From NCBI RefSeq assembly GCF_003574395.1, contig NZ_QMJY01000080.1:1-64000 (forward strand): a stretch of DNA of 64,000 nt, given 5' to 3'. Shown here piece after piece: positions 8,257 through 46,387 of this stretch. The notes under the pieces were generated by a model. The model was not told the origin of the DNA. It did no database searches and worked only from the letters and a program-made list of their open reading frames with translations. How positions within the stretch are numbered: the stretch's first letter is position 1; each line of letters starts with the position of its first letter. Source of the stretch: Tabrizicola thermarum. Its GTDB lineage: Bacteria; Pseudomonadota; Alphaproteobacteria; Rhodobacterales; Rhodobacteraceae. Made by a program: the position numbers and the translations under genes.

Positions 8257-9051
8257 CTATGCCAAAGCCTTCCGCAGGGCCCGCACCTGATCCGCCGAGG
8301 TCTGCCGCCGGACCGGGGGCGCAAAGCCCAGCTCGACCACGCGGCCCGTGACCGGAACCGCAGCCGAACATGACGCGTGAATCTCGGTGATGCCAAGCCC
8401 CTTCAGCTTTGCCGCATTTCCCGGGGTCACCCCCGACCCCGGCATGACCGTGATCCGCCCCGCCGCCTGCGCGACCAGCGCCGCGATCCGCGCCGCGCCC
8501 GCCTCGGCCGTCACTGCCCCGCCCGAGGTCAGGATACGGTGAAATCCCAGCGCGACCGCCTCTTCCAGGGCCGCGCCCATGTCGGGCACAAGGTCGATGC
8601 AGCGGTGCAGCACCAGATCGGGGGCGTCCGGAGTTTTCGAAAACTCCGGACCGGAGCCTTCGAAGGCTCCGTCCCGATTTCTTCGAAGAAATCGGTCTCC
8701 GGCATCCGGCGTCGCCGCCGCCACCAGCCGCCGCAGCACCGGCACATCCAGCCGCCCATCCGGCAGGCTGGCCCCCAGCACCACCCCGGCCAGCCCCGCC
8801 GCGCGGACCGCCGCGATCTCGACTTCCATCATCGCGACCTCGGCCTCGGACCAGACGAAATCCCCCGCGCGCGGCCGGATCATCGCCACGACGGGCACGC
8901 CACAGCCCGCCGCCAGACCGATCAGCCCGGCCGAGGGCGTGAGGCCCCCCAGCGCCAGCGCCGCGCACAGCTCGATCCGGTCCGCGCCGCCCGCGACGGC
9001 CTGGGCCAGCCCCTCGGCCGTATCGACGCAGACCTCCAGCCTCAGCCCCAT
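8257..9051 (-). CDS. cutC: CutC family protein carrying an in-frame palindromic insertion
   Basis: A 264-aa TIM-barrel protein of the CutC family, historically linked to copper homeostasis, though its biochemical role is unsettled. Family motifs include LEVCVDTAEGL, GGADRIELC and MPGSGVTPGNAAKL. Between VAAATPDAG and the strand PDLVLHRCIDL lies an extra segment, about residues 117-139, rich in Arg, Phe and Gly. It is encoded by three perfect palindromes at 8626-8695. The reading frame stays open, so the product may be functional with a surface loop. The start at 9051 overlaps the upstream ROK gene by 10 bp. A start at 9102 would add only a Gly-rich tail. Confidence 0.88.
   Translation of the reverse strand: MGLRLEVCVDTAEGLAQAVAGGADRIELCAALALGGLTPSAGLIGLAAGCGVPVVAMIRPRAGDFVWSEAEVAMMEVEIAAVRAAGLAGVVLGASLPDGRLDVPVLRRLVAAATPDAGDRFLRRNRDGAFEGSGPEFSKTPDAPDLVLHRCIDLVPDMGAALEEAVALGFHRILTSGGAVTAEAGAARIAALVAQAAGRITVMPGSGVTPGNAAKLKGLGITEIHASCSAAVPVTGRVVELGFAPPVRRQTSADQVRALRKALA
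8626..8695. repeat. Three tandem perfect palindromes centred on TTCGAA, inside cutC
   Basis: Palindrome 1 spans 8626-8651 (26 bp, core ggagttttcgaaaactcc). Palindrome 2 spans 8652-8671 (20 bp, core ggagccttcgaaggctcc). Palindrome 3 spans 8674-8695 (22 bp, core gatttcttcgaagaaatc). All are perfect, nearly abut one another, and share a TTCGAA centre. They lie in frame within cutC at a place where I expect the family to have a short loop. A related, less perfect element is at 45141-45178. This resembles palindromic-element insertion as known in Rickettsia. Confidence 0.85.
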
Positions 9052-42896: not shown

Positions 42897-45128
42897 ATGA
42901 AACCTTTGCCCTCCAAGGATGAAATCCGTCAGTGGATTTCCGAGAACCCCGGCCTTGCGGCCAAGCGCGACATTGCCAGGGCCTTTGGCATCAAGGGCGA
43001 TGCGCGGATCGCGTTGAAGGCGCTGTTGCGTGAACTGGAAGGCGAAGGCGTGGTGGAGAAATCCGGGCGCCGCTTCCGCGCGCCGGGGATCCTGCCTCCG
43101 GTGGCCGTCTTGCAGGTTCTGGCCCCGGATGCGGCGGGAGATCTGTTTGCCCGGCCCCTTGAAGAGGGCGTGGAGGAGGGACCGCGCATCCTGATCGTGC
43201 CGAAGAAGGGCGATCCGGCGCTGGGGGCCGGGGACCGGATTCTGGCGCGGCTGGCGAAGGTCGAAGCCGAGGATCGCGATTATGAGGCGCGGCTGATCCG
43301 CAAGCTGGGGTCGAACCCGGCGAAGGTGCTGGGGGTGTTCCGGCAGGGCGCCGAAGGCGGGCGGATCGTGCCCATCGAGAAGGGCTCGGACCGCGAATGG
43401 CGGGTGGCGTCGGACATGACCGGGGGGGCCAGGGATGGCGAGCTGGTCGAGGCCGAGGCGGTGGGCGGGCGGCGGCTGGGGCTGCCGGCGGCGCAGGTGG
43501 TGGCGCGGCTGGGCGATCCGGCGGGGCCGCGGGCGGCGAGCCTGATCGCCATTCACCAGCACGGCATCCCGGATGTGTTCCCGGATGCGGTGATTGCCGA
43601 GGCGGATCGGGCCGAGCCGGTGGGCATGAAGGGGCGCGAGGACTTGCGTGATCTGCCGCTGGTCACCATCGACCCGGTGGACGCGCGGGACCGGGACGAT
43701 GCGGTTTATGCCGAGGCGGATACTGACCCGGGCAATCCGGGCGGGTTCGTGATCTGGGTGGCCATCGCCGACGTGGCGCATTTCGTGACTCCGGGGTCTG
43801 CCCTGGACCGCGAGGCGCGGCGGCGGGGGAATTCGACCTATTTCCCCGACCGGGTGGTGCCGATGCTGCCGGACATCCTGTCGGGGGACCTGTGCAGCCT
43901 GCACGAGGGCGTGGACCGGGCCTGCATCGCGGTGCGGATGGTGATCGACAAGGATGGCCACAAGCGGAGCCATCGCTTCGTGCGCGGGATGATGCGGTCG
44001 GTGGCGTCCTTGCACTATGCGCAGGTGCAGGCAGCGGTGGACGGGGCGCCGGATGAGAAGACGGCCCCACTGGTCGATTGGGTGCTGAAGCCGCTGTATG
44101 CCGCCTATGCGGCGCTGAAACAGGCGCGGGAGCAGCGGCAGCCGCTGGATCTGGAGCTGCCGGAGCGCAAGATCGAGCTGGGCGAGGACGGGCGTGTCGT
44201 CTCGGTCGCGTTCAAGGAGCGGCTGGAAGCGCACAAGCTGATCGAGGAGATGATGATCCTCGCCAATGTCGCGGCGGCGGAGGAGTTGATCCGGCTGAAG
44301 CGGCCCCTGCTGTTCCGGGTGCATGAGGAGCCCTCTCCGCTGAAGCTGGAAGGCTTGCGCGAGGTTGCGGAAGGCGCGGGGCTGACGCTGGCCAAGGGGC
44401 AGGTGTTGCAGACGAGGCACCTGAACCGACTTTTGGCGCAGGCCGAAGGGACGGAGTTCGACGAGCTCATCAACCTGTCCACCCTGCGGTCGATGACGCA
44501 GGCCTATTATCACCCGGAGAATTTCGGGCATTTCGGGCTGGCGCTGCGGAACTATGCGCATTTCACGTCGCCCATCCGGCGCTATTCCGACCTGATCGTG
44601 CACCGCGCGCTGATCTCGGCGCATGGCTGGGGGCAGGACGGGTTGTCGGCCTGGGACGAGGAGAACCTCGAGGAGACGGGCAAGCTGATCTCGGAAGCCG
44701 AGCGGCGCAGCATGGCGGCAGAGCGGGATACCAATGACCGCTATCTGGCGGCCTATCTGGCCGACCGGGTGGGGGCGGAGTTTGCCGGGCGGATTTCCGG
44801 GGTGCAGCGGTTTGGGGTGTTCGTTCGGCTGGACGAGACCGGGGCGGACGGGCTGATCCCGGTACGGGCGCTGGGGCGGGAGTATTTCAACTACGACGAG
44901 GGCAGCCAGACGCTGAGGGGGTCGGAGACCGGGCTGGTGCTGGGGATCGGGCAGAAGGTCATGGTGCGGCTGGCCGAAGCCGTGCCGGTGACGGGCGGGC
45001 TGATCCTGGAGCTTCTGTCGGTCGAGGGGGCGGCGATGCGGCCGTCGCGGCGTTCGGGGGGGAAGTATCAGCCCCGGAAGCCTGCGCAGGCGGCGGCGAA
45101 GCGGCGGCTGGTGCGCAAGCGGCGATGA
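42897..45128 (+). CDS. rnr: Ribonuclease R
   Basis: A 743-aa 3'-5' exoribonuclease. An N-terminal winged-helix-like segment is followed by cold-shock domains, then the RNB catalytic domain with the aspartate cluster VTIDPVDARDRDDAVY. An S1 domain follows (GRISGVQRFGVFVRLDETGA), then a basic tail (RRLVRKRR) that helps unwind structured RNA. The length is normal. The ATG of the lytic transglycosylase gene overlaps its stop, so the two are co-translated. Confidence 0.96.
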   Translation: MKPLPSKDEIRQWISENPGLAAKRDIARAFGIKGDARIALKALLRELEGEGVVEKSGRRFRAPGILPPVAVLQVLAPDAAGDLFARPLEEGVEEGPRILIVPKKGDPALGAGDRILARLAKVEAEDRDYEARLIRKLGSNPAKVLGVFRQGAEGGRIVPIEKGSDREWRVASDMTGGARDGELVEAEAVGGRRLGLPAAQVVARLGDPAGPRAASLIAIHQHGIPDVFPDAVIAEADRAEPVGMKGREDLRDLPLVTIDPVDARDRDDAVYAEADTDPGNPGGFVIWVAIADVAHFVTPGSALDREARRRGNSTYFPDRVVPMLPDILSGDLCSLHEGVDRACIAVRMVIDKDGHKRSHRFVRGMMRSVASLHYAQVQAAVDGAPDEKTAPLVDWVLKPLYAAYAALKQAREQRQPLDLELPERKIELGEDGRVVSVAFKERLEAHKLIEEMMILANVAAAEELIRLKRPLLFRVHEEPSPLKLEGLREVAEGAGLTLAKGQVLQTRHLNRLLAQAEGTEFDELINLSTLRSMTQAYYHPENFGHFGLALRNYAHFTSPIRRYSDLIVHRALISAHGWGQDGLSAWDEENLEETGKLISEAERRSMAAERDTNDRYLAAYLADRVGAEFAGRISGVQRFGVFVRLDETGADGLIPVRALGREYFNYDEGSQTLRGSETGLVLGIGQKVMVRLAEAVPVTGGLILELLSVEGAAMRPSRRSGGKYQPRKPAQAAAKRRLVRKRR

Positions 45129-46387
45129 GGGGCGGGGCAAGACTTTTCGAAAGGTTTTGCAAGATCCTTCGAAGGATTCTGGTGGCGCTTTGGGTGGCCG
45201 GGGTGCCTGGTCTGGCAGCCGCGCAGACGATCCTGCCCGATCCGGTGGCGGGGGTGGAGGGTGTGATGGGGTCTCAGGCCGGGCTTGACGCATGGGTGAA
45301 GGACTTCCGGCCTCGGGCGCTGGCGGCGGGGGTGTCGGCGGCGACCTTCGACGCGGCACTGCGGGGGGTGGAGTTCAACCCCAAGGTCGTAGAGCGCGAC
45401 CGGAACCAGAACGAGTTCACCAAGACGATCTGGGACTACCTGGACACCGCCGTGTCGGAGGACCGGGTGGGGCTGGGGTTGAAGGCCATCGCGAAGCACC
45501 GGGACGTTCTGGAGCGGATCGAGGCGGAGTACGGGGTGGAAAAGGAAGTCGTCGCGGCGATCTGGGGACTGGAAAGTGCCTATGGAACCTACCGGGGTGA
45601 TCTGCCGGTGTTGGGGTCGCTCGCGACGCTGGCCTATGAGGGGCGGCGGGGGGCGTTTTTCGAGGCGGAGCTGATCGCGGCGCTGCGGATCGTCGAAGGC
45701 GGGCATGTGGAGCGTTTTGTCGGCAGTTGGGCGGGGGCGAGCGGGCATACGCAGTTCATGCCGTCCAGCTGGGAAAAGTTCGCGGTCGATTTCGATGGGG
45801 ACGGGAAGCGGAACCTTTGGGGGGAGGATCCAGCGGACGCTTTGGCCTCGACGGCGAATTACCTGCGGCACTGGGGCTGGGCCAAGGGGCAGCCCTGGGG
45901 GGTGGAGGTGCGCCTGCCCCAGGGGTTCGACTATGACCAGACGACAGAGCGGGTGGTGAAACCCGTGGCGGAGTGGCAGGCGATGGGGGTGCGGACGGTG
46001 TTCGGCGCGGACCTGCCGGACCATGGGCCGGGGTCGATCCTGTTGCCCGGGGGGTATCGGGGGGCGGCCTTTCTGATCTGGCCGAATTTCCAGGTGATCG
46101 AGCATTACAACACGGCGGATGCCTATGTGGTGGCGATCGGGTCGCTGTCGGACCGGCTGGCCGGGGGCGCGGCGATCCAGTCCGGGTGGCCGCGCGAGTT
46201 GCGGGCGCTGACGCTGGAGGAGCGGCGGGAGTTGCAGGATTTGCTGACGAAGGCCGGGTTCGATGCGGGGGGTGTCGACGGGCGGATGGGGCCGAAGACG
46301 GTGGCCGCGGTGAAGGCCTTCCAGAATGCGCGGGGGCTGGTGCCGGACGGCTATCCGTCGCTGGAGGTGCTGGAACTGTTGCGCTGA
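45125..46387 (+). CDS. Periplasmic lytic murein transglycosylase (MltB-like) with peptidoglycan-binding domain
   Basis: A 420-aa exported enzyme that cleaves glycan strands to 1,6-anhydro products. The SLT_2 catalytic Glu is in AAIWGLESAYGTYR, and HTQFMPSSWEKF follows. A C-terminal PG_binding_1 domain (about the last 60 residues, ELQDLLTKAGFDAGGVDG) is present. The signal region is odd: residues 5-18 (ARLFERFCKILRRI) come from a TTCGAA palindromic element before the hydrophobic core LVALWVAGVPGLAAA. The start overlaps the rnr stop (ATGA). Confidence 0.93.
   Translation: MRGGARLFERFCKILRRILVALWVAGVPGLAAAQTILPDPVAGVEGVMGSQAGLDAWVKDFRPRALAAGVSAATFDAALRGVEFNPKVVERDRNQNEFTKTIWDYLDTAVSEDRVGLGLKAIAKHRDVLERIEAEYGVEKEVVAAIWGLESAYGTYRGDLPVLGSLATLAYEGRRGAFFEAELIAALRIVEGGHVERFVGSWAGASGHTQFMPSSWEKFAVDFDGDGKRNLWGEDPADALASTANYLRHWGWAKGQPWGVEVRLPQGFDYDQTTERVVKPVAEWQAMGVRTVFGADLPDHGPGSILLPGGYRGAAFLIWPNFQVIEHYNTADAYVVAIGSLSDRLAGGAAIQSGWPRELRALTLEERRELQDLLTKAGFDAGGVDGRMGPKTVAAVKAFQNARGLVPDGYPSLEVLELLR
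45141..45178 (+). repeat. TTCGAA palindromic element at the start of the lytic transglycosylase gene
   Basis: Two TTCGAA- or TTTCGAAA-centred units lie 10 bases apart: acttttcgaaaggt (45142-45155, nearly palindromic) and atccttcgaaggat (45164-45177, perfect 14 bp). They encode the charged n-region of the signal peptide. The element is related in centre and style to the triplet in cutC at 8626-8695. Confidence 0.65.

Follow-up and report, generated by a model that had tools for sequence, protein, structure and literature searches.

The three tandem palindromes that interrupt cutC in Tabrizicola thermarum are almost certainly a copy of a dispersed repeat. The explanation that we favor for the whole of the data, and consider probable, is that of a 68-bp REP-like repeat that serves as a hairpin at the ends of genes, with one copy inside cutC. 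The stretch of DNA analyzed (the window) is 64,000 nucleotides long, and the features discussed here are collected in Table 1.

Table 1. Features of the window, in coordinates of the 64,000-nucleotide stretch.
Feature	Position	Strand	Remarks
Palindrome P1	8626-8651	no strand	26 bp, perfect
Palindrome P2	8652-8671	no strand	20 bp, perfect
Palindrome P3	8674-8695	no strand	22 bp, perfect
Repeat unit P1-P2-P3 (family B)	8628-8695	+	68 bp; limits set by covariance model R1
cutC (PF03932)	8257-9051	-	interrupted in frame by the unit; likely start ATG at 9051; longest ORF from 9102
Family A copy	45138-45181	no strand	two neighboring 22-bp palindromes with slight decay, 9 nt downstream of the rnr stop codon
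SLT_2 transglycosylase gene	45125-46387	+	likely frame starts upstream of the family A copy and crosses it

The first-pass annotation described perfect palindromes of 26, 20 and 22 bp with TTCGAA centres, and the sequence agrees with it; the centres are spaced 23 bp apart. Thirty first-order Markov simulations of the window gave palindromes of exactly 20, 22 and 24 bp at rates of 0.2, 0.07 and 0.03 per 64 kb, respectively, and no longer ones, so that three within 70 bp are far beyond expectation and a chance origin was ruled out. The region is predicted to fold as RNA into three hairpins within a longer stem (z -6.5 against shuffles). When the whole window was compared with Rfam at gathering thresholds the sole match was a tRNA, and the tract was therefore rejected as a known RNA family. 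A terminator scan gave no terminator-like site at the cutC copy.

The suspicion that such palindromes recur elsewhere in the genome was borne out. Run against the own genome by blastn, the 70-nt tract matched in 82 rows, many of them hits to a sub-palindrome; the rows include 14 full-length copies (66-70 nt, 81-100% identity, that of the window among them) and further shorter copies of about 38-46 nt. P2 is missing from several of the shorter copies, and one (G000:C9:23750-23817) was extended to full length by the covariance model R1. With R1, matches at E≤1e-3 were found in 32 of 32 genomes of the genus, at 3 to 89 per genome, counts that are inflated (one copy may score on both strands) and that come from the best 150 candidates, at most, of each genome. 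The best E value was 1.4e-14 or lower in 24 genomes. The other eight (G001, G008, G009, G011, G013, G014, G028 and G029), some of which are incomplete, gave weaker matches, with best E values of 3.7e-11 to 9.9e-6; their copies may be relics of a decaying family, and a partner factor may have been lost there. In the family-wide sample, searched with stricter filters and mostly with one genome per genus, R1 matched at E≤1e-8 in 14 of 394 genomes, i.e., in 13 of 393 genera including the own one (12 of 392 others). Among the matches listed by a pattern scan (at least 120 stretches) were Tabrizicola, Pseudogemmobacter, Fuscovulum, Xinfangfangia, Gemmobacter aestuarii, a Rhodobacter sp. and a Pseudorhodobacter MAG. 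A record titled Exiguobacterium profundum (CP059262.1, locus L213) also carries the unit; the other matches listed are Rhodobacteraceae-type and proteobacterial records, and this one is probably a mislabelled MAG.

The alignment of the 14 own copies revealed P1, P2 and P3 as three distinct conserved units with short spacers and paired substitutions. The claim that the arms vary around a constant TTCGAA does not stand as made: each of the three units is conserved in its own right, and the centre differs among copies (TCGA, TCAA, TTGA). In these copies 96.6% of the cells pair, and five pairs are changed on both sides, against 1.5 in shuffles. For a larger sample, 172 distinct family B copies were located in the loci collected, by means of a weight matrix built from the 14 own copies and in loci many of which came from searches for near-consensus copies. 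By similarity of their flanks, a measure short of full synteny, 108 of the 172 fall into 34 groups, one of which is cutC. In the remaining 33 orthologous junction groups (99 copies) differences amount to 6.8% in stems, 19.5% in loops, 44% in spacers and 52% in the 12-nt flanks (ungapped), and where a position departs from the commonest pair it is still paired in 68 cases, G-U in 15 and broken in 47. The preserved pairing in both data sets agrees with the first-pass annotation, which had suggested either a mobile palindromic element or a recognition signal under selection. Gene conversion among copies could mimic paired changes, but stems differ less between orthologous (6.8%) than between non-orthologous copies (10.2%; 0 of 2000 permutations), a difference that favors inheritance at the site over constant homogenization. 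The loops conform to TYRA in 136 (P1), 154 (P2) and 152 (P3) of the 163 copies outside cutC; with constraint on the loops as well, selection could in fact act through a protein that binds the DNA or the RNA. The outer flanks of the same 163 copies weakly prefer GGCG to the left of the unit and CGCC to its right (0.26-0.45 bits per base), so the unit may be slightly longer than the 68 bp modelled.

Eleven of the 172 copies passed the in-gene test, in a sample that includes 20 regions picked mostly for long open frames and hence favors such cases. Nine of these are the orthologous cutC inserts; the other two (L009 and L084), which have weak scores, were rejected as in-gene copies because they start 2 and 1 nt past the stop codons of rarA and pth, so that cutC is the only in-gene site left standing. 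The other 163 copies lie between convergent genes in 67 cases, between co-directional genes in 83 and between divergent genes in 4, with one side uncalled in 9, whereas of 800 points placed at random in non-coding DNA, 22 fell between convergent, 332 between co-directional and 160 between divergent genes, and 286 had a side uncalled; the control points were weighted by intergenic length and stop-filtered and the copies were not, which overstates the contrast in orientation by an unknown amount, and genes were called by a purpose-made codon-usage score instead of a standard annotation. A stop codon was found within 15 nt of the copy at 159 of the 223 gene ends that face copies, compared with 64 of 415 at control points. 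Both sides contribute to this proximity, the P1 side with 72 of 111 ends (median 8 nt) and the P3 side with 87 of 112 (median 7 nt), and only 3 of the 223 called ends run 36-59 nt into the element. A TTTT within 12 nt downstream was present in 6 of 163 copies (2.5% in controls), and this rarity of T-tracts makes ordinary intrinsic termination unlikely.

A second family (A) occupies similar places. It is a 44-bp element of two adjacent 22-bp palindromes, the core of which is common to family B, and by reading, 38 of the 47 palindrome pairs listed were assigned to it. In 12 copies (9 distinct) 97.5% of the positions pair, and 9 of 18 pairs are changed on both sides, compared with 3.1 in shuffles. 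Eleven of the 12 own-genome copies face at least one gene end at 0-25 nt, and one is divergent. The family search supplied 12 loci, ten of which lie outside the genus; in 9 of the 12 a gene end is 0-40 nt from the element, two have divergent neighbors and one has an uncalled side. The corresponding model (R2), run like R1 in the family-wide sample, matched at E≤1e-6 in 50 of 394 genomes. After the rarA stop, families B and A replace each other across species: among 30 loci, classed by eye except for the three family B scores, there are 3 with family B, 5 with family A, 2 with three hairpins of changed sequence, 2 with A-like hairpins with changed loops, 2 with partial or decayed elements and 1 cut by a contig end; of those without an element, 14 have another downstream sequence and 1 has the same kind of downstream sequence. 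At pth, the peptidyl-tRNA hydrolase gene, B-type elements follow at 4 of 27 loci, two of them as a P3-P1 short form, and none is present at 23 of 27. At two pth loci (L327 and L328, from G000 and G003) the element downstream is the same and the proteins share 99% identity, in two species whose remaining genes are less alike, which suggests a recent exchange between species.

The cutC copy is the exception to the rule of placement. The minus-strand frame of 8257-9051 is open across all three palindromes, as the first-pass annotation had maintained, and reads the unit in the order P3-P2-P1; the frame is likewise kept in 9 of 9 carriers of the insert. PF03932 aligns to the CutC of the window in two separate stretches, the first of which ends at residue 115. 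The same split was seen with NF008603, which matched an insert-free relative in one stretch, and all three proteins scored fall below the curated cut-off of this model. A search of the genus genomes gave a cutC match in 31 of 32, three of these being matches to the element only. The alignment contains 28 loci, of which L116, which is partial and without the site, was left out of the cutC tree and 27 were compared: the insert is present in 9 of 27 and absent in 18 of 27, so that the residues taken to be extra are indeed missing from most CutC proteins of the genus. Their number, given as 23, holds for the element alone; relative to insert-free relatives the net gain in this genome is 84 nt, i.e., 28 codons, and in the nine carriers it ranges from 72 to 84 nt (24-28 codons). 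From the general build of TIM barrels, the site would be a helix-to-strand turn on the face opposite the active site. It lies just ahead of the segment with the HR motif, as judged from an alignment to the CutC structures 3iwp and 1twd. Mean pairwise differences at codon positions 1/2/3 are 0.128/0.210/0.171 in the insert, without a codon-like pattern, compared with 0.136/0.092/0.362 in the N-terminal and 0.205/0.193/0.418 in the C-terminal part of CutC. Hence, the protein is constrained and the inserted residues apparently little, and selection for the encoded peptide is unsupported by the variation among codon positions. Six of the 9 carriers retain the full set of 26 stem pairs; the stem departures of the cutC group are 5 paired, 1 G-U and 16 broken, and the palindromes did not differ significantly in decay between cutC and the other copies (Mann-Whitney p 0.59).

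The carriers do not form a single clade. The cutC tree, with 8 changes, rejects this arrangement (AU p 4e-53), although stars mark just 4 of its 24 inner branches and only 2 changes are forced by those four, and on a tree of rarA plus the transglycosylase the carriers are scattered, with 9 changes of the insert, at least 5 of them forced. The insert-free locus L100 has four extra codons that resemble, by eye, a deletion scar, and the inserts of L096 and L097 have a common stem variant that is found in 2 of 163 other copies. Because of these two observations we prefer a history in which one insertion would have been followed by losses or by short-tract exchange, with independent insertions at one hot spot as a possible alternative. 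In the carrier L094 the left flank of the insert repeats letters of the empty site, a possible target duplication as judged by eye.

Family A may also have contributed to a protein. If translation begins at the putative start codon, the copy at 45138-45181 would encode the signal-peptide n-region (LFERFCKILRRIL) of the SLT_2 transglycosylase. Twelve of the 30 loci of the genus have such an N-terminus, and one more carries a likely remnant (by eye); one or more palindromes of at least 14 bp survive at 11 of the SLT_2 loci.

We found no earlier description of this element in this bacterial group in the open-access full-text literature. In excerpts of PMC3733652 and PMC12306157, REPs are described as lying near stop codons and inside genes, and as translational regulators when within 15 nt of a stop; the excerpts of PMC3733652 add that GTAG REPs often supply the TAG stop of the neighboring gene and that CGTC repeats predominate in the alpha division. 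The unit resembles REPs and BIMEs as a short palindrome with many dispersed copies, mainly extragenic, in convergent or co-directional intervals and often near stops (some REPs are reported in genes), and it sits downstream of genes and seldom between divergent ones, as judged against a length-weighted control. It differs from REPs in being built of three (B) or two (A) tandem palindromes of 20-22 bp, mostly with TYRA loops, and in keeping its pairing by paired changes at orthologous junctions. No consistent GTAG or CGTC terminal tag was found among the 163 copies. GTAG occurred within 12 nt of an end in 22 of them (1.6% in controls), a place where TAG stop codons lie, and CGTC near an end in 13 (10.3% in controls); a distant link to GTAG REPs is possible. 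The unit is thus a new variant whose position and shape are REP-like, but it does not qualify as a strict REP. With intrinsic terminators it shares hairpins after stop codons, but there is no T-tract after nearly all copies, and two or three hairpins stand directly at the stop. Compared with MITEs, it offers the weak four-base outer preference and the one possible target duplication seen by eye.

The alternatives to a gene-end hairpin are partly compatible with it, as spread by transposition and a function can both hold, and the confidences given to them are not exclusive. Spread as a MITE or REP-type element by a dedicated transposase would account for the dispersed copies and the cutC insert, with conservation as a sign of recent spread; it fits the GGCG/CGCC preference, the excess of GTAG and the possible target duplication and deletion-like scar of L094 and L100, both seen by eye. 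However, a Y1_Tnp/RAYT transposase (PF01797) exceeds the cut-off in 0 of 32 genus genomes (two reach 21 bits, with the cut-off at 23) and in 5 of 14 control genomes, and RAYT was rejected as the mobilizer. Since the termini carry no consistent tag and copies are common to orthologous sites, with stem variants typical of each site, we regard this reading as unlikely. We give somewhat more credit, though still little, to a signal at the DNA level, in which a nucleoid, gyrase or recombination protein would recognize the units as binding sites or cruciforms, and their position after stops would merely reflect avoidance of promoters and coding sequence. The near-symmetrical units, their TYRA loops and the palindromes kept by the cutC copy agree with it, and the 70-nt strand also folds well below its shuffles as DNA (z -6.9), but the stem bases change in pairs, the centre can differ from TTCGAA, and the distance to the stop is shorter than mere avoidance requires.

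The first-pass annotation also drew a parallel to the RPEs of Rickettsia, which in excerpts of PMC10969869 and PMC3733652 are about 150 bp long and lie, nearly half of them, in ORFs of unrelated genes. A selfish palindrome of this kind, spreading into genes in a translatable frame, would explain why the cutC insert is in frame in every carrier and placed at a turn, and the possible signal-peptide start in family A would be a further instance. Five or six frames are open in 76 of 172 copies, compared with 49 of 3000 shuffled copies and 93 of 3000 palindromes with shuffled arms; yet six-frame openness does not exceed that of random 68-mers of the window (10 of 172 copies against 403 of 3000), and an unusual freedom of the unit from stop codons was rejected on this ground. 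The likeness holds for cutC alone, where a palindromic element would be read in frame inside a conserved protein, but repeated invasion of genes was not upheld: the unit has 68 bp and a single orthologous in-gene site among 172 copies, two apparent others begin just past stops, the usual place after stops is REP-like, and the differences within the insert lack the codon-like pattern of the rest of CutC. An RPE-like origin is accordingly improbable.

We return to the gene-end hairpin, whose role at the RNA level we judge to be somewhat likely. Transcripts of either strand would carry two or three hairpins at their end, and these may shape 3' ends by blocking exonucleases, by attenuation or by slowing ribosome release at the stop, the last as reported for REPs of E. 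coli that lie no more than 15 nt from a stop. One copy would have entered the turn of CutC that precedes the strand with the LHRCxD motif. Since the unit has no stop in the cutC frame, translation probably continues through this copy and adds residues, read in sense as P3-P2-P1, and later loss or exchange between species would have produced the scattered distribution. The preservation of the stem pairs inside cutC in six species, away from any gene end, is not predicted by a function purely at 3' ends. The lack of an element at 14 of 30 rarA loci and at 23 of 27 pth loci also weighs against a gene-end role, as do the three called gene ends that extend into the element.

The paired substitutions at orthologous junctions and the exchange of families at one stop speak for selection on the hairpins themselves, in genomes where no RAYT exceeds the cut-off, and this bears on whether hosts need their REP-like repeats. 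As a tentative extension, the Rhodobacteraceae might possess interchangeable tandem-palindrome modules at gene ends, the TYRA-loop hairpins of which would be recognized by a putative factor and would mark the points where translation and transcription end, or control them, single modules having been co-opted as protein in the CutC loop and in the signal-peptide start of a secreted transglycosylase. If this is true, one stretch of DNA would serve as hairpin and as peptide at once, and the cutC and transglycosylase cases would represent routes by which such repeats can turn into protein sequence.
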